Assembly: GCF_001945395.1 (NCBI RefSeq)
Contig: NZ_MSXV01000023.1
Location: forward strand, 1 to 64,000
Direction: 5' to 3'
From: Pseudomonas sp. PA15(2017)
Lineage (GTDB): Bacteria; Pseudomonadota; Gammaproteobacteria; Pseudomonadales; Pseudomonadaceae
DNA length: 64,000 nt
The notes below the pieces were generated by a model. It saw nothing but the letters and a program-made list of their open reading frames with translations, searched no databases and was not told the DNA's origin. Positions 3,360 to 27,845 of this stretch are shown piece by piece. The number at the start of each line of letters is the position of its first letter. Positions within the stretch are counted from its first letter, which is position 1. A program made the translations under genes and the position numbers.

Positions 3360-3794
3360 TCAGTTGTAGGTCTGCGCGTACTGCACGCCGACGGTGATGG
3401 TGATGCTGTGGGTGGTTTCGCCGTTGCTGGCCCAGCGCGGAATGGCTTCGTCTTCGCCTTCCAAGAGGCCCGGGAACTTGCGGTCGGGCTGGTCTTGGCC
3501 GATGCCCAGGCAACGCAGGATGTCGACGTGCACGGCGTCGAGCTCTTCCTCGTCGCAGGCCTTGCTGAAGAACACCTCGATCTCGAAGCTGCGCGCGCGC
3601 AGCGCCTGGGTCACTGCCAGGTCGGTGCGTACGTCGCTGGCCCAGCGCACCAGGGCGTAGGGCAGCGGCGGTTTTTCGCTGGGCTTGTCTTGGGGGCCGT
3701 ACACGGCCTTGAGGTCGGTGTGATAGCCGTTGGCCGGGCGTATCAGCTCGAGCTGATCGCGCAGCGCCTTGGTAACCTGGGCGGCCTTGTTCAT
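3360..3794 (-). CDS. tail terminator-like protein (lambda gpU position)
   Basis: 144 aa. Starts MNKAAQVTKALRDQL and overlaps the upstream GpZ-like gene by 4 bp. The order GpZ-like, this gene, tail tube mirrors lambda Z-U-V. The small alpha/beta composition with a C-terminal strand-rich ITITVGVQYAQTY fits a terminator or completion protein that caps the tail tube. Function is mainly from order. Confidence 0.6.
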   Translation of the reverse strand: MNKAAQVTKALRDQLELIRPANGYHTDLKAVYGPQDKPSEKPPLPYALVRWASDVRTDLAVTQALRARSFEIEVFFSKACDEEELDAVHVDILRCLGIGQDQPDRKFPGLLEGEDEAIPRWASNGETTHSITITVGVQYAQTYN

Positions 3795-4405
3795 GAGCCA
3801 GTGCCTCCGCCGTATCGGGCGATCTCTCGCCGCACGCGGCGTTCGAATTCTTGCCGCAGGAAGGTGTTCGTCCAGCGGATGGTTTCAGCGCCCGTCAGCT
3901 GCTGGAACCAGTAGGCCATTGAAGGGCCCATGGCGGTCTGCAGCTTGAGGTTGCGCCGGTAGTTCTTATTGGCGGTGCGCTTGTCACCGCGCGTGGCCAG
4001 GGGCTTCTGCCCGACGCTGGCCGGGTTGACGAAGCCGGCGGCGAGCTTCTTCCCGCGCAGGCCCATCACGTACACCCGGGCACGAGTCGGGCTTACCCAC
4101 TCGAAGAGCCAGCGCCGGTAATCATCGACCCGCACGCCGGAGCTGGACGGGATGATGCGGCTGTTCATCCGCCCCTTGCGGGCGCGCTTGATGGTCAGTT
4201 TGCCGCGCACATCCGAACCGCCCAGGCGGGCGCCGAGAATGGATGACTTGAACACGCCGCCCATGCGCTTCACGTAGCGCTCGGTGCGCGTCTTCGTGGC
4301 CGTGGTGTTCAGTGCACCGCGCAGCACCGGGTCGATGCTGCGGTTGATCTGGGCCAGCCTGGCCCGGGCAAGCTCCTTGCCGACGAGCCGAACGCCCATA
4401 TCCAT
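3791..4405 (-). CDS. minor tail protein Z-like neck protein
   Basis: 204 aa, very basic. It has lambda GpZ layout: an N-terminal helix with ALNTTATKTRTERY, an Arg/Lys-rich centre (KRARKGRMNSRIIPSSS), a strand pair around RRWLFEWVSPTRARVYVMG, and a basic C-terminal helix. Role: tail completion before head joining. It overlaps both neighbours by 1-4 bp, so it is translationally coupled within the neck cluster. Confidence 0.65.
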   Translation of the reverse strand: MDMGVRLVGKELARARLAQINRSIDPVLRGALNTTATKTRTERYVKRMGGVFKSSILGARLGGSDVRGKLTIKRARKGRMNSRIIPSSSGVRVDDYRRWLFEWVSPTRARVYVMGLRGKKLAAGFVNPASVGQKPLATRGDKRTANKNYRRNLKLQTAMGPSMAYWFQQLTGAETIRWTNTFLRQEFERRVRREIARYGGGTGS

Positions 4406-14503: not shown

Positions 14504-15535
14504 TCACCCTCCCCACGTAGAAATACCGGAAACGACGCTATCGCCCGCCGCTTCTGGCTTGCAGTCATTTTTAAGAAGTGCAGGAACGGCCACTTTTTGG
14601 CCGTGCGCATCGGCAAATCCGCACTCATCGAGGCGGGCATGCCAGCGTTCCAAGGCCTCGCGACGGCGGTCCATTGCGTCGCGGGTCAGGTAGGTCTCGG
14701 TGGTCACGCCCAGGGCATGGTTGATCAGCAACTCACCCACCATGTGATCGACGCCGATGTCCGCCAGGCTGGAGCGCATCAGCTTGCGCAGGTCATGGCT
14801 CGTCCACTGCCGGCCGCTCACCTCACGCATCAGGGCATGGCCGCTGGTCAGCGCCATGCCGGCGCCACCGCGCACCGGGAACATCCATCCCATCTTCAAG
14901 CGTGCAGCAGGCACCGCCTCGCGATACCGGCGAAGCAGGCCGACCACCTGGCTGGTCAGCGGCAGTACATGCTCGCGGCGGCTCTTCGTGTTCGCCTCCG
15001 GGATCACCCACACCCGTTCATCCAGCGACACATGGCCCCAGCGCGCGGCCAGCGTCTCGGCGATGCGCGTGCCGTGGGCCAACATCATCAGCGGCAGCAT
15101 GCCCTTGGCCGGGTCCGCGTTGAACACGCCCACCAGGTGCTGCACCAGCTCGGCCAGGTCGACCCGCGACAACGCTGCCGGCTTCGGCCGCAGCTTGCCC
15201 TTGTAGAAATCACGGAAGGTCGTGCCGGCCAGCGGGTTGTTGTCTATGCGCTTCTGCGTCTCGGCCATAGCGAACGCCTGGCGCAGCCCCTGCAGCGCCT
15301 TCTGCACCGTGCGCGGCGCCAGCTCCTGGTGCATCGGGAAAACCAGCTGGTCGTCCAGCGTCACCCGGTCCACCTTACGCAGCGCCACCTTGCCCACGCG
15401 CGGCAGCACGTGTTTTCGCATCAGGCAGGCCATGCTTGCCCGGTATTTCTCGCTGCGCGTGCGGTCACCCTCGATGCGCGACAGCCACCACTCGACCACA
15501 TCGCCGAGGGTGCGGAAGCCAGCTTTCTTGGCCAT
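14504..15535 (-). CDS. tyrosine recombinase, second of two in the prophage
   Basis: 343 aa. Catalytic residues visible: Arg in HGTRIAETLAARWG, His/Arg in SHDLRKLM, His in INHALG and Tyr in TETYLTRD. The N-terminal SAM-like core-binding domain covers about residues 8-110. It lies in the early minus-strand operon between small genes and the Tat protein, far from either phage end. It overlaps the small membrane-protein gene by 1 bp. Possible roles are dimer resolution or an alternative integrase. Confidence 0.88.
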   Translation of the reverse strand: MAKKAGFRTLGDVVEWWLSRIEGDRTRSEKYRASMACLMRKHVLPRVGKVALRKVDRVTLDDQLVFPMHQELAPRTVQKALQGLRQAFAMAETQKRIDNNPLAGTTFRDFYKGKLRPKPAALSRVDLAELVQHLVGVFNADPAKGMLPLMMLAHGTRIAETLAARWGHVSLDERVWVIPEANTKSRREHVLPLTSQVVGLLRRYREAVPAARLKMGWMFPVRGGAGMALTSGHALMREVSGRQWTSHDLRKLMRSSLADIGVDHMVGELLINHALGVTTETYLTRDAMDRRREALERWHARLDECGFADAHGQKVAVPALLKNDCKPEAAGDSVVSGISTWGG

Positions 15536-23918: not shown

Positions 23919-24518
23919 ATGAAACCTGAAATGGTCACCGTGAAGGTCGGCGAGATCACCCTCAGCGCGCCCTCACAGCTTGTCATCGCCGCCCTGATGG
24001 CCGCAGCCATGGGCAATGTCGAAGCCCCAACCGTCAGCCCGCCGCAGGTAACCGCGAAAGTGCCGGCAATCGGCGAATACTGGCCTGACCAGGGCGGCTA
24101 CAACGCCGGGCTGATCGCAGCCACCAACGAAGTGCCAGCGCACTACCTAATCGTCGCCACCAAGGATATCGGCGACCACGCCTGGGGCGGCCGCGGCAAA
24201 GAGTCAGCCGCCACCAGCAAGCTGGACGGCCTGGCGAACACCGAGGCGCTGGTGAAGGCTGGCGAGCATGATGCGGCCAGCGCCGCAGCGAGTCATGAGG
24301 CCGACGGCTTCAGCGACTTCTACCTGCCAGCCGCCGGCGAGCTTTACCACTGCTGGCTGCACGTGGCCGAGCTGTTCAACAAGGACTGCGCCTACTGGTC
24401 AAGCACGCAGCGCTCCGCCATCAACGCGTTCTACATGGGCTTCGGTGCTGGCGATCAGAGCTTCACCGGCAAGGACAACCAGCTCCGCGTCCGCCCCGTC
24501 CGCAGATTCTTCATTTAA
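23919..24518 (+). CDS. DGR target protein 1, C-type-lectin-like (DUF1566-like)
   Basis: 199 aa; GAGG upstream of ATG 23919. The C-terminal half has the CLec/DUF1566 pattern: FYLPAAGELYHCW, then AYWSSTQRSA, the variable segment and the closing LRVRPVRR. Residues 164-196 are encoded by VR1. No signal peptide or membrane helix is clear apart from a hydrophobic stretch at about 18-31. The fold tolerates massive side-chain change and usually binds ligands. Ligand unknown. Located in the early operon, not among tail genes, which is unusual for phage DGR targets. Confidence 0.9.
   Translation: MKPEMVTVKVGEITLSAPSQLVIAALMAAAMGNVEAPTVSPPQVTAKVPAIGEYWPDQGGYNAGLIAATNEVPAHYLIVATKDIGDHAWGGRGKESAATSKLDGLANTEALVKAGEHDAASAAASHEADGFSDFYLPAAGELYHCWLHVAELFNKDCAYWSSTQRSAINAFYMGFGAGDQSFTGKDNQLRVRPVRRFFI
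24407..24505 (+). repeat. DGR variable repeat VR1
   Basis: 99 bp, same length as TR (25771-25869). It differs at 14 sites, all at TR adenines; none of the 68 non-A bases differ. Changes include AAC to ATC, TAC, GGC, TTC, ACC and GAC. Identity with TR continues a further 4 bases past the 3' end. Confidence 0.97.
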
Positions 24519-24537
24519 TCCTTCATTCATTCGACCC

Positions 24538-24560
24538 AAGGGCGCGTCAGCGCCTTTTTT
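24538..24560 (+). terminator. hairpin with T tract downstream of VR1
   Basis: Stem AAGGGCGC / GCGCCTT with TTTTTT. A normal intrinsic terminator by sequence. It begins 33 bp after VR1, so it may also serve as the 3' hairpin used in retrohoming of other DGRs. Confidence 0.65.
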
Positions 24561-24584
24561 GTTGCCTTCAGAAAGGAGCAGCAC

Positions 24585-25196
24585 ATGAACGCAGTTCAGA
24601 ACGTGGCAACCCTCCCGGCAATCGGCCAGCCATACGGCGGCGGCTTCGTTACCGGCATCACTCGTGACCCGGAGACCGGCAAGCGCTACCTCAACATCAC
24701 CGCCGGCGCCGAGCATGAGTTGGTCGGAGCCTGGGGCGAATACGGCCAGAAGGTCGAAGGCGCCAGCAGCTTCACCAACAGCCGCGCCAACACCGAAGCG
24801 ATGGCAGCCGCAGGCAGCGACCTGGCGCAACGTGTGCTGGCACTGAGCATCGGCGGCTTCAATGGCTGGGCGATCCCGGCGCGCGATGTGCAGGAGCTGC
24901 AGTACCGCCACTTCAAGCCGACCACCGAAGAGAACTGGCAGTACAACCGATCAGGCGACAACCCCAACAGCGAGCCAGTCGGCCAGCTGTACAGCGAAGA
25001 AGATCCAGCGCAGACCGTGCACCAGGATTTCCGCGAAGGTGAGGCCGAGGCCTTTCAAGACCGGGCGTACTGGTCCAGCACGCAGCGCTCCGCCTACCTC
25101 GCATTCTTCATGGGCTTCGATGATGGCATTCAGCTCGACCTCGTCAAGTACATCCAGCTCCGCGTCCGCCCCGTCCGCAGCGAATTAATTGATTAA
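24585..25196 (+). CDS. DGR target protein 2, C-type-lectin-like (DUF1566-like)
   Basis: 203 aa; AAGGAG 7 nt before the ATG. Shares with target 1 an opening LPAIG (VPAIG there), a GGFNGWAIPARDVQELQ segment (DGFSDFYLPAAGELYHCW there), AYWSSTQRSA and LRVRPVR. The rest is diverged, so it is an old paralogue, not a recent copy. Residues 167-198 come from VR2, and the ending SELID replaces RRFFI. Probably a second display protein fed by the same template. Confidence 0.9.
   Translation: MNAVQNVATLPAIGQPYGGGFVTGITRDPETGKRYLNITAGAEHELVGAWGEYGQKVEGASSFTNSRANTEAMAAAGSDLAQRVLALSIGGFNGWAIPARDVQELQYRHFKPTTEENWQYNRSGDNPNSEPVGQLYSEEDPAQTVHQDFREGEAEAFQDRAYWSSTQRSAYLAFFMGFDDGIQLDLVKYIQLRVRPVRSELID
25082..25180 (+). 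repeat. DGR variable repeat VR2
   Basis: 99 bp, aligned to TR without gaps. 16 differences, all at TR adenines, such as AAC to CTC (three codons), TTC, GGC, TAC and ATC. TR identity stops exactly at the final GCAG. Confidence 0.97.
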
Positions 25197-25211
25197 TTCG
25201 TTTATTTAATT

Positions 25212-25229
25212 CCGGCCGCTTGCGGCCGG
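25212..25229 (+). repeat. GC-rich hairpin downstream of VR2
   Basis: Stem CCGGCCGC / GCGGCCGG with a 2-nt loop (or 7 bp with 4 nt), 31 bp after VR2. There is no T tract, so it is less like a terminator than the VR1 hairpin. Could form a cruciform like the one needed for retrohoming in the Bordetella phage DGR. Confidence 0.6.
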
Positions 25230-25248
25230 CGCCTCAAGGAAGAAGCCG

Positions 25249-25605
25249 ATGGCAATGCACACCGCCCTACCCATCCACAAAGTGGCCTTTGATCTGCTGA
25301 GCCTGTCGACGGACATCACGCGCAACATCCCGCGTGACCTGAAGGCAGGGCTCGGCGCCAAGGTTCGAGACGAATGCATCGAAGTCATGGTGCTGATCGC
25401 CCGGGCCAACGCAGCCCGGGAAAAACGTCAGCACCTGGGCGAGATGGTCGAGCGTGTGCAGGTGATCGAGTTCCTGCTCCGGCTCTTCAAGGAGAAGCGC
25501 TTCATCAGCGTGCCACAGCACGCGGCCGCCATCGAGCTGACAGCCTCCATTGGCAAACAGGCCAACGCCTGGAAACGCAGCACAGCATCCGCGCCCGCTT
25601 CCTGA
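25249..25605 (+). CDS. avd: accessory variability determinant Avd
   Basis: 118 aa; AAGGAAG before the ATG. Four-helix-bundle pattern of the Avd / 23S-IVS-like family: LPIHKVAFDLLSLSTDITRN, then a basic IPRDLKAGLGAKVRDE helix, IARANAAREKRQHLGEMVER and a C-terminal IELTASIGKQANAWKRS. Avd forms a pentamer that binds the reverse transcriptase and template RNA. It lies directly between target 2 and TR, the order seen in the Bordetella phage DGR. Confidence 0.9.
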   Translation: MAMHTALPIHKVAFDLLSLSTDITRNIPRDLKAGLGAKVRDECIEVMVLIARANAAREKRQHLGEMVERVQVIEFLLRLFKEKRFISVPQHAAAIELTASIGKQANAWKRSTASAPAS

Positions 25606-25770
25606 AGGCTATGGCCCTCAGGACTGTGCGACTTGAATCTGGTCGTGCCGCTGGCCAGCTGGCCACCGCCATGCGCAGCAGAGATACCGCCGGTCTAAAG
25701 CGTCCGCGTAGGTCTCGCGCAGTTACCAGGCTGAGCAATCGGCCTGGCGACGTATATAGCACGATTGGTC

Positions 25771-25869
25771 GCAGCGCTCCGCCAACAACGCATTCAACAT
25801 GAACTTCGATGATGGCAATCAGAACAACAACGACAAGAACAACCAGCTCCGCGTCCGCCCCGTCCGCAG
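25771..25869 (+). repeat. DGR template repeat TR
   Basis: 99 bp with 31 adenines, concentrated in AAC/AAT codons in the frame of the VRs (QRSANNAFNMNF, then GNQNNNDKNNQ). 22 of the 31 adenines are changed in at least one VR. The last 26 bp are GC-rich and unchanged in both VRs apart from no A edits, the expected initiation-of-homology end. It begins 166 bp after avd and overlaps the first codons of the RT frame. Confidence 0.97.
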
Positions 25870-27845
25870 ATTCGAATGGTGCTCCCTACCCCTTCAGCGC
25901 CCTGGTACAGGCCTACTACGATTGCCGGCGCTCCAAGCGCAACAGCGCCAGCGCGCTGGCATTCGAGCAGAACCTGGAACGGAACCTGATGCAACTCCAC
26001 CGCGACCTGCTCACTGGCCGATACCAGCCAGGCCGCTCCATCTGCTTCGTCGTCACCCGGCCCAAGCACCGCGAGGTGTGGGCCGCCGAGTTTCGCGACC
26101 GCATCGTGCACCACCTGCTCTACAACCACATCGGCCCAAGCATAGAGCGCAGCTTCATCGCCGACAGCTGCGCCTGCATCCCCGGTCGCGGAACGCTGTA
26201 CGCAGGCCGGCGGCTCGAGGCGAAGGTGCGCAGCGCCAGCCAGAACTGGGCGAAGCCCTGCTGGTACCTCAAATGCGACCTGGCCAACTTCTTCGTCGCC
26301 ATCGACAAGCACGTGCTGTGGCAGCAACTGGCACCGCGCATCACCGAACCCTGGTGGCGAGCACTCGCCCACCAGGTGCTGATGCACGACCCGCGCGAGA
26401 ACTACGAAACACGCAGCCCGGCGCACCTCTTCAACAAGGTGCCCCAGTACAAGCGGCTGGCGGTGCAGCCAGCCCGCAAAGGCCTGCCGATCGGCAATCT
26501 GTCGTCGCAGTTCTTCGCCAATGTCTACCTGGATGCGCTCGACCAGTTCTGCAAGCACACGTTGGGCGTCAAGCACTACATCCGTTACGTCGACGACTTC
26601 GTGCTGCTTCACGAGTCACCGCAACAGCTCAACGAATGGCTGGAGCAGATCAACGCCTTCCTGCCCGCACTGGGCGCAAGGTTGAACCCCAATAAGACGA
26701 TCCTGCAGCCAGTAGACCGGGGTATCGACTTCGTCGGCCACGTCATCAAGCCCTGGCGTCGCACCACCCGCAAGCGCTCCGTCGCCCAGGCCCTTAAGCG
26801 CACCGCACAGGCGCCCGGCGAACAACTGCGCGAAACCGCCAACAGCTACTTCGGCCTGCTCACCCAGGCCAGCCATAGCCACAAAGATCGGGCAGCGCTC
26901 GCCAACCTAATTCTCAAGCGCGGCCATGCCGTCAACGGCGCGCTGACAAAGAGCTATCCGAAGAAGTATACCGACCAATGCAGGGAGCACCCCATGCCCA
27001 TCACCGCACCCGTGATCCGTTACCACGGCTCCAAATTTCGCTTGGCGCCCTGGGTAATCGAACACCTGCCGCAACACACCTGCTACGTCGAGCCATTCGG
27101 CGGCGCTGGTGGCGTGCTCATGCAGAAGTCCCGCGCATACGCCGAGGTGTACAATGACCTCGACGGGGACATCGTCAACCTCTTCCGCGTGCTGCAGGGC
27201 GAAGCAACGCGAGCGGCATTGTTCCAAGCGCTAACGCTGACACCCTACGCCCGCGCGGAATTCGAGCTCGCATGGGAAGCAGTTGAAGAGCCAGTCGAAC
27301 GTGCACGCCGCACGATCATCCGAGCGCAGATGGGCTTCGGCTCCGCCGGCGCCACCAAGGGCAAGACCGGTTTCCGCATCGACACCAAGCGTGAATACGG
27401 AACAGCCCAAGCGCTATGGGCGGATTACCCCGATTCGATCGCCGAGATTGGCCAGAGGCTCAGTGGCGTGCTGATCGAGAACAGGCCCGCGATCGAAGTG
27501 ATTCGCGCCCACGATGCCCGGAACACGCTTCACTACGTCGACCCACCCTACATGCACGACACGCGATACCTGGGTGCTAAGCACGGCCGCTATTACCGGC
27601 ACGAGATGACAGACGCGCAGCACGCCGAGCTGCTTGCCGCGCTGCTCGAGCTGGAAGGAATGGTGGTCATATCCGGCTACCCGTGCGAGCTGTACGACAG
27701 CATGCTGGCGGGCTGGGACCGGCGCGAAACATCGGCCCGCATCTCTGCCGGCCGAGGAACCGCGACTCGCACCGAATGCATCTGGCTGAGCCCCGCATGC
27801 CAACTCCGTAGCAGCCAGCTTGGCCTGTTCAGCGCCAGCGCCTGA
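25809..27845 (+). CDS. DGR reverse transcriptase fused to Dam/D12 adenine methyltransferase
   Basis: 678 aa. RT part about residues 25-385: KHREVWAAEFRDRIVHHLL, catalytic CDLANFF, DGR hallmark IGNLSSQ (228-234) and YVDD (260-263). Methyltransferase part 396-678: RYHGSKFRLAPWV, EPFGGAGG (from 428), NDLDGDIVNLF and DPPY (578-581), full Dam length. No stop codon separates the parts. The frame is closed by a TGA at 25800, so the RT start (ATG 25809 or 25812) lies inside TR. ATG 26994 could start a separate methyltransferase. Copies TR RNA into A-mutagenised cDNA; the methylase site is probably GATC, unproven. Confidence 0.92.
   Translation: MMAIRTTTTRTTSSASAPSADSNGAPYPFSALVQAYYDCRRSKRNSASALAFEQNLERNLMQLHRDLLTGRYQPGRSICFVVTRPKHREVWAAEFRDRIVHHLLYNHIGPSIERSFIADSCACIPGRGTLYAGRRLEAKVRSASQNWAKPCWYLKCDLANFFVAIDKHVLWQQLAPRITEPWWRALAHQVLMHDPRENYETRSPAHLFNKVPQYKRLAVQPARKGLPIGNLSSQFFANVYLDALDQFCKHTLGVKHYIRYVDDFVLLHESPQQLNEWLEQINAFLPALGARLNPNKTILQPVDRGIDFVGHVIKPWRRTTRKRSVAQALKRTAQAPGEQLRETANSYFGLLTQASHSHKDRAALANLILKRGHAVNGALTKSYPKKYTDQCREHPMPITAPVIRYHGSKFRLAPWVIEHLPQHTCYVEPFGGAGGVLMQKSRAYAEVYNDLDGDIVNLFRVLQGEATRAALFQALTLTPYARAEFELAWEAVEEPVERARRTIIRAQMGFGSAGATKGKTGFRIDTKREYGTAQALWADYPDSIAEIGQRLSGVLIENRPAIEVIRAHDARNTLHYVDPPYMHDTRYLGAKHGRYYRHEMTDAQHAELLAALLELEGMVVISGYPCELYDSMLAGWDRRETSARISAGRGTATRTECIWLSPACQLRSSQLGLFSASA
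26982..26996 (+). promoter_or_regulatory. internal ribosome binding site for the methyltransferase
   Basis: AGGGAG (26982-26987), 6-nt spacer, ATG (26994-26996), exactly where the methyltransferase domain starts. Suggests that both a fusion and a free methylase are made. Confidence 0.6.

Follow-up and report, generated by a model that had tools for sequence, protein, structure and literature searches.

RT-15 RNA precedes the template of a Pseudomonas prophage diversity-generating retroelement and is predicted to clamp its 3′ boundary

Introduction

How is the template RNA of a retroelement held, and what sets the point at which its copying starts? The question is raised by a diversity-generating retroelement (DGR) in the first 64,000 nucleotides (nt) of contig NZ_MSXV01000023.1 of Pseudomonas sp. 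PA15(2017); this whole stretch, analysed at its full length of 64 kb, is called the window below. DGRs are textbook elements, and to our knowledge the holding of the template RNA and the start of copying are known in detail only for BPP-1. A sequence-only reading of the window had described the gene order target, target, avd, template repeat (TR), reverse transcriptase (RT), with one variable repeat (VR) in each target, and had called the element a DGR. Our analysis bears out the order and supports the interpretation, which the RT, Avd, adenine-only TR/VR pairs and predicted lectin-like targets all fit, and adds two parts that were overlooked: an RT-15 RNA 5′ of TR and a methylase in frame behind the RT. 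We regard it as highly probable that this is a Pseudomonas prophage DGR in which RT-15 precedes the template, is predicted to bind the TR 3′ boundary and likely serves as scaffold and clamp for the start of copying.

RT-15 RNA fills the gap upstream of the template

A full-length match to RT-15 (Rfam RF03018; 25589..25771, plus strand) occupies the 165 nt that separate avd from TR; it forms the 5′ flank of the template RNA, ends at the TR start and scores 167.8 bits (E 1.3e-41) against a gathering score of 82. RT-15 was present in 65 of 73 sources searched, some of them near-copies of each other (by batch, the window plus 10 of 11, then 13 of 14, 14 of 14, 9 of 13 and 18 of 20). The misses were divergent DGRs (L079, L081, L083 and L090, in our numbering of loci) and loci with an incomplete 5′ end or with no avd or repeats detected (L013, L049, L052 and L107). 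Where the distance was measured (53 of the 65 hits), RT-15 ends −5 to +1 nt relative to the first base of TR. Aligned with MAFFT, 36 RT-15 sequences support a conserved fold, with 50 predicted pairs, 29 of which show compensatory change on both sides, and a z-score of −17.5 against column shuffles.

The other side of the template looks different. Across 34 relatives, the 191 nt 3′ of TR yielded zero consensus pairs (z 0.3), and no raised synonymous conservation was found 3′ of TR. RF03022, which the same search does find in BPP-1, had no match at the gathering score in any of the 73 sources. The window has no gap between TR and the RT open reading frame (ORF), and no structured spacer of the BPP-1 type. 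In 69 loci the avd–TR gap spans 130–180 nt, and 7–62 nt separate TR from the RT core.

Rfam output lists RT-15 as a small RNA gene with no DGR label. Our literature search, covering titles and the openings of abstracts, found nothing naming RT-15 together with a DGR; a prior mention is possible in Weinberg et al. 2017, reportedly the source of the RT-numbered RNAs. Another Rfam RNA, Proteo-phage-1 (RF03044), lies downstream of the DGR at L016 (9213-9291) and L021 (8855-8935).

A co-varying base pair links RT-15 to the template 3′ boundary

A segment of RT-15 that is unpaired in the Rfam consensus (25633..25641, plus strand) is complementary to the TR 3′ boundary (25867..25875, plus strand), where TR/VR identity ends; both covariation and the predicted fold point to this pairing. 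The conserved RT-15 stretch, GAATCTGG in the window, is complementary to CAGATTC at the boundary. This complementarity was first seen by eye, after which all 24090 column pairs of RT-15 and the TR boundary were scanned. The pair G25635–C25873 is canonical in 66 of 66 aligned loci (GC 25, TA 19, CG 11, AT 9, TG 2) and ranks second of the 24090, behind a pair within an RT-15 hairpin, scoring 0.84 against 0.30 for the next pair between RT-15 and the boundary. On the RT tree, both sites change 10 times and do so on the same branches in 10 of 10 cases (P 3.8e-15, best of 3220 pairs). The scan omits L079, L081, L083, L107 and L095, in which RT-15 or TR was not found or the segment was misplaced, as well as loci lacking TR or the boundary anchor; L095, inspected separately, has the G–C pair. 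In the predicted fold of 25589-25893, a 9-bp helix forms at the clamp with a pair probability of 0.98.

The boundary is also where the copied part of the repeats appears to end. Over 131 VRs, TR/VR identity stays at 0.92–1.0 up to CAG and decays to 0.18 five bases further, which places the end of the copied part at the clamp; the clamp would thus set the start of complementary DNA (cDNA) synthesis. Because the base pair co-varies, with canonical pairing in every aligned locus and changes on shared branches, RT-15 likely clamps the template 3′ end where copying starts. In the mechanism that we propose, the RT with Avd would bind RT-15 and copying would start at the clamped TR boundary, run back through TR with random incorporation at adenines and stop near RT-15; the cDNA would then take the place of the VR in one or the other target gene, with the inverted repeats downstream of the VRs assisting.

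Several observations weigh against this mechanism. When the fold is extended into the RT gene up to 26050 (+157 nt), the clamp leaves the best fold and its probability falls to 0.55. A single clamp pair co-varies cleanly, many clades have a mismatch inside the seven clamp positions, and pairing at positions 5 and 6 exceeds expectation only slightly, at 59 (0.89; 0.80 expected) and 47 (0.71; 0.63 expected) of 66 TRs. With the window's RT-15 folded alone, 4 of the 8 bases of GAATCTGG, namely CTGG, sit mostly in pairs, with an unpaired probability of 0.01-0.16. In several clades RT-15 shows complementarity to the VR boundary as well, with position 7 matching in 58 of 133 VRs against 28% expected, so that RT-15 might act on target DNA. 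We examined RT-15 as a target-DNA guide, and it does fit the VR boundary better than TR in the L025 group, L053 and L082. We disfavour a guide relative to a clamp in cis, since position 7 is kept with TR (63 of 66 strictly Watson–Crick, on a slightly different locus set from the 66 of 66 canonical) but with only 58 of the 133 VRs.

Two other accounts of the same RNA were weighed against the clamp. BPP-1 itself suggests one: according to PMC12875486, its 3′ spacer recruits bRT–Avd and primes cDNA, and a motif in the avd 3′ end stops copying. An ordinary DGR of that type could hide its RT/Avd-recruiting RNA 3′ of TR within the RT coding sequence and use RT-15 only to end copying on the 5′ side, and reverse transcription must in any case begin 3′ of TR. 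We find this distinctly unlikely, given the unstructured 3′ flank in 34 relatives, its ordinary synonymous conservation, the lack of RF03022 matches across the 73 sources, and the position of a heavily co-varying 183-nt structure 5′ of TR that co-varies with the TR 3′ boundary. The other account is a translation switch in which RT-15 and the long-range pair close a loop over TR and the RT starts, choosing between RT message and template. It draws on the window's RT starts (ATG 25809/25812), which lie only within TR, and on the 25 of 69 loci with an in-frame start only inside TR. Yet RT-15 and the pair are widely kept even though the start follows TR in 37 of the 69 loci and is found neither in nor after TR in 7, and a switch leaves unexplained why the clamp pair coincides with the end of TR/VR identity. 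A switch seems quite unlikely to us; such a role could coexist with that of the clamp.

The element is a genuine DGR

Each testable defining feature identifies the element as a genuine DGR. The 99-nt TR (25771-25869, plus strand) aligns without gaps to VR1 (24407-24505, plus strand; 14 differences) and VR2 (25082-25180, plus strand; 16 differences), exactly as the sequence-only reading had it, to the base. Its further counts also hold: all 30 VR differences fall on TR adenines, none of the 68 C, G or T positions is altered, and 22 of the 31 adenines are changed in at least one copy. By simple arithmetic, the chance that 30 of 30 differences would fall on adenines, given 31 adenines in 99 positions, is ~1e-15. 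The match between TR and VR1 extends from 25770 to 25873 (104 nt), still with just the 14 changes at adenines. A search of the window's own genome with TR as query returned three copies in all: TR, VR1 and VR2.

The accessory gene avd (25249..25605, plus strand) matches PF22296 above the cut-off and phrog_3206, ‘Avd protein of DGR’, with NF033474 under its cut-off. The RT part of the following ORF (25809..26966, plus strand, with its start within TR) matches phrog_1423 (E 8.7e-119) and PF00078. Its best solved match and top sequence hit is the BPP-1 bRT (8ub7, E 4.5e-34); the next is a maturase (9e-9). The motifs IGNLSSQ and YVDD, which we take to be of DGR type, are both present as described before, and the search against DGR profiles proposed at that stage agrees with the assignment. 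The ORF 25809-27845 needs one correction, as it encodes more than an RT: similarity to RTs ends at about residue 386 (26966), and from Met396 (26994) onwards the ORF is of the D12/Dam adenine methylase class.

Before the RT core, the sole in-frame ATG, GTG or TTG codons in the window are those at 25809 and 25812, both inside TR, so the 3′ half of TR would double as coding sequence for the RT N-terminus. Such an overlap of TR with the 5′ end of the RT is already known from group 3 of DiGReF (PMC3521204). Seven relatives (L051, L056, L057, L059, L064, L065 and L069) have no in-frame ATG, GTG or TTG inside or after TR before the RT core.

The RT does draw hits from group II, retron and DRT models, as it would if a retron, a group II intron or a defence-type RT only resembled a DGR. 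The NCBIfam hits among these are all below their cut-offs, the closest solved RT is that of BPP-1, and Avd is present together with the adenine-only repeats, which by themselves already refute such a reading; we give it virtually no chance. A defence system was likewise considered and rejected: in PADLOC the fused ORF attracted numerous hits of RT and methylase families, and the other six proteins tested attracted none.

Template-to-variable-repeat copying among relatives

We gathered 112 RT-bearing loci, including the window, its copies and other near-copies. At least one adenine-biased repeat pair was found in 102 of them (two weak: L090 and L115), two pairs in 81 and three in 10. Scanned over the 112 loci, VR differences fall at 2656 of 6254 TR adenines, 12 of 6798 C, 22 of 4579 G and 22 of 2700 T, in a scan that tolerates A mismatches, so that segment ends lean to A. 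The sequence-only reading had named non-adenine VR differences at a similar rate in close relatives as an observation that would tell against it; where near-identical loci differ (50 pairs with ≤60 RT differences were compared), they do so almost only at template adenines.

The clearest cases are three pairs identical in RT, TR and 200 nt upstream. L028 and L089 differ at 16 A sites in one VR and at 17 A, 1 G and 1 T in the other; L038 and L087 at 18 A in one and at 18 A and 1 T in the other; and L075 and L025 at 13 A and 14 A per VR. L117 and L094, two prophages within one genome (G197), have the same TR and 1 RT difference, and their VRs differ at 16 A and at 18 A, 1 G and 1 T; they form a natural within-cell comparison of DGR output. 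At 88 non-adenine TR site differences among 11 Pseudomonas loci, the VRs carry the base of the TR beside them in 352 of 352 letters, and the sole TR difference between the window and its closest relative (L138) is also carried by the ungapped VRs. Such own-locus TR bases in VRs are the mark of TR-to-VR copying. Because relatives with identical RT and TR differ in their VRs at template adenines, these comparisons indicate that the family is or was recently active. Against this stand the facts that most identical-RT pairs are plain duplicates with unchanged VRs, and, for activity of the window's own prophage, that its single other copy (L041), probably the same strain, is identical over 13122 nt.

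Some relatives depart from the usual layout. In L138 (7860-7990), VR1 carries a short insertion relative to its own TR. The TR of L020 (5902-6004) has 17 adenines against 34 in its sister L017 and differs by one base from one VR, at a TR-type 3′ boundary; this template seems to have been overwritten by a VR, and the DGR would then have little left to mutate. L013, L049 and L052 are RT relatives with no avd, RT-15 or repeats detected, probably DGRs reduced to the RT alone. In L036 (4708-4896), the RT begins only ~1.1 kb downstream of RT-15 and avd and no TR/VR pair was found, as if there had been an insertion between.

The RT is fused to a predicted adenine methylase

Behind the RT, the stop codon of relatives is lost (TAT, 26967-26969) and a 9-codon linker (26967..26993, plus strand), delimited by comparison with L138 and other relatives, leads into a predicted Dam/D12-class DNA adenine methylase (26994..27845, plus strand). 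The methylase part matches phrog_56 (E 1.3e-68), PF02086 (56.4 bits against a cut-off of 22) and the Dam structures 4gbe and 2ore (E 8e-7 to 2e-6); TIGR00571 is under its cut-off. It keeps a Shine–Dalgarno-like AGGGAG (26982-26987) and its own ATG.

Among 88 RT loci, the fusion occurs in the window's own copies (L001 and L041) only. No junction-spanning protein was found among the 120 matches listed of 1136, judged by length, coverage and Pfam with six sequences inspected; these 120 proteins have 372-403 amino acids and an RT or a methylase domain only. The same literature search of titles and abstract openings found no DGR RT–methylase fusion. Candidate counterparts did not hold up: P0001, covering 68% of the junction region, is a methylase without an RT, and rows from G136 and G186 whose matches appeared to begin ahead of the methylase proved, once aligned, to contain methylase sequence only. 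In L113 (genome G054), a broken RT tail lies beside broken methylase pieces.

L138 suggests how the fusion arose. Its RT ends AAG AAA TAA and is followed by a C5-type methylase gene (class assigned from sequence and seed matches), and its Dam gene, with DNA 86% identical to that of the window, precedes the targets; similarity to the L138 RT breaks off inside the L138 stop codon, at 26968. In the simplest history, the methylase cassette behind the RT would have been exchanged, one breakpoint falling in the RT stop codon; the exchange would have left nine linker codons, for which no source was found. In the wider family, 15 of 78 loci have a methylase gene of one class or another ≤4 kb downstream of the RT, in some cases right next to it (the full 4 kb of downstream DNA is not present at every locus). 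Counted by ORF, 16 of 111 downstream ORFs of at least 200 amino acids are methylases (9 C5, 5 N6/N4 and 2 D12, the window's Dam included). We considered a functional link between RTs and methylases and set it aside, reading the varied classes as an exchangeable cargo slot with no specific partnership.

The fusion itself could nevertheless be functional, with the methylase active where reverse transcription or retrohoming takes place and, for instance, marking the rewritten copy or protecting it. Each half is full-length, with matches to relatives at ~80% and 77%, their ratios of non-synonymous to synonymous substitution rates (dN/dS) against L138 are low (0.073 for RT, 0.071 for Dam), and methylase genes recur downstream of related RTs. 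We nonetheless hold a functional fusion to be very unlikely: it is confined to the window's copies among the 88 RT loci, none of the 120 matches listed of 1136 appears to span the junction, neighbouring methylases differ in class, L138 has the same Dam upstream of the targets and a C5-type enzyme behind the RT, and the purifying selection that the dN/dS values show mostly covers the time before fusion. Because the methylase retains its own start signal, the fusion is probably incidental and tolerated. An opposite concern is that the extra 283 residues spoil the RT and that the VRs are fossils of past activity, which would agree with the finding of no second RT–methylase fusion and no datable post-fusion VR change. 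Such decay appears unlikely to us, as all DGR parts are open and intact, TR retains its 31 adenines and a marker base of the window's own TR is found in both VRs.

Target genes, inverted repeats and genomic setting

Both targets are predicted to adopt a C-type-lectin fold with the VR at the C-terminal end, as in DGRs. Target gene 1 (23919..24518, plus strand; 199 amino acids) is Lcl_C-like, with VR1 at its 3′ end, a match to phrog_4245 and PF07603 under the cut-off; target gene 2 (24585..25196, plus strand; 203 amino acids) has VR2 at its 3′ end and also matches phrog_4245. AlphaFold models reached a mean predicted local distance difference test score of 81.8 for target 1 and 95.7 for target 2. 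For both, the top structural match is the C-terminal domain of Legionella Lcl (8q4e), with moderate scores: E 3.6e-5 and a template modelling (TM) score of 0.62 by target length for target 1, and E 4e-4 and TM 0.68 by target length for target 2. Further C-type lectins rank below Lcl at E values of little meaning.

Each VR is followed by an inverted repeat. The GC-rich one after VR2 (25212..25229, plus strand; 8-bp stem, found by a stem scan) is likely a homing hairpin. An 8-bp stem stands at the same place in 9 of 9 other Pseudomonas-type VR2s shown, and over all loci such a stem follows 47 of 161 VRs; shuffled sequences gave 2 and control stretches taken upstream gave 6. The repeat after VR1 (24538..24557, plus strand), read in the sequence, is imperfect, with a GTCA loop and then a T-run, and is possibly a homing hairpin or a terminator. 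That the perfect-stem scan scored none after VR1 counts against a role for both repeats in homing; the VR1 hairpin is an imperfect one.

The window covers part of a Pseudomonas chromosome and includes a prophage, whose terminase, portal, protease and major head protein genes lie on the minus strand at 5.7-11 kb. A CI-like repressor is encoded at 18.4 kb, and the plus strand carries genes for an exonuclease (21.6 kb) and an integrase (31.1 kb). These two flank the cassette (target 1, target 2, avd, RT-15, TR, RT, methylase). The DGR targets are encoded among early genes, on the repressor–exonuclease–integrase side and away from the head and packaging genes. A second integrase-family gene (14507-15535, minus strand) is located between head genes and repressor. 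In annotated phages of this family the cassette is likewise embedded in early genes: between repressor and integrase in Magia, downstream of the CI repressor and upstream of Bet and a nuclease in Haboob, and downstream of SSB and an endonuclease in Cruim01. In Magia, two lectin-fold genes had already been flagged by the depositors as possible DGR targets.

Discussion and comparison with known systems

The DGR itself is of a known kind; an RT-15 5′ scaffold with a 3′ clamp would be a new RNA architecture, for which the statistics are strong and the biochemical role is inferred. On balance we favour a mirror-image class of DGR, represented in Pseudomonas, Burkholderia, Shewanella and betaproteobacterial phages, in which the orphan RNA RT-15 would be the scaffold half of the template RNA, placed 5′ and not 3′, and would ring the template by pairing with its 3′ boundary, thereby setting the mutagenic start; here the copying enzyme and a DNA adenine methylase would form one polypeptide of 678 residues. 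A family with its structured RNA on the opposite side, and with natural G–C, U–A, C–G and A–U clamp pairs, suggests a modular architecture, and this natural set of clamp pairs offers a ready comparative test. A likely role is thereby assigned to RF03018, on which our literature search found no paper, and RT-15 becomes a simple landmark for finding such DGRs. The read-through from RT into methylase shows that phage cassette exchange can create fusion proteins.

The window resembles BPP-1 (mtd-avd-TR-brt) in having a target with a C-terminal VR, avd, TR and RT in the same order and on the same strand, and in its adenine-only changes, lectin-fold target and hairpin after the VR (for BPP-1, in part after PMC3240598). 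The two differ in the RNA. In BPP-1, avd abuts TR, and 144 nt (2743-2886) separate TR from brt; RF03022 (Phage_DGR) covers 2750-2882 (133 nt) of this spacer, and there is no RT-15 match. In the window, 165 nt containing RT-15 separate avd from TR, and there is no spacer after TR. The target of BPP-1 is a single, larger tail protein (mtd), whereas the window has two small targets among early genes, and brt (annotated 1756-2742) lacks the methylase fused to the window's RT.

RT-15 itself is annotated in the Cruim01 record, between the preceding gene and the RT and without a link to a DGR; relative to the Rfam entry, RT-15 is here tied to TR by position and by a co-varying base pair. Cruim01, Haboob and Magia, temperate phages of Pseudomonas and Burkholderia, share the RT family (65-80% identity) and have small or lectin-fold genes preceding avd and RT, with RT-15 in Cruim01 and Magia; unlike the window, they have no fused methylase. 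A DGR with 2 VRs is listed for P. fluorescens WH6 in PMC3521204. The closest relative is the G358 prophage (L138), whose cassette is 91% identical over 3.5 kb with one TR difference and an identical Avd (12 synonymous, 0 non-synonymous changes). It differs from the window in an RT that ends in TAA, in the position of Dam, which precedes the targets, in the C5-type methylase that follows the RT, and in a third target with a VR upstream (3787-4308).

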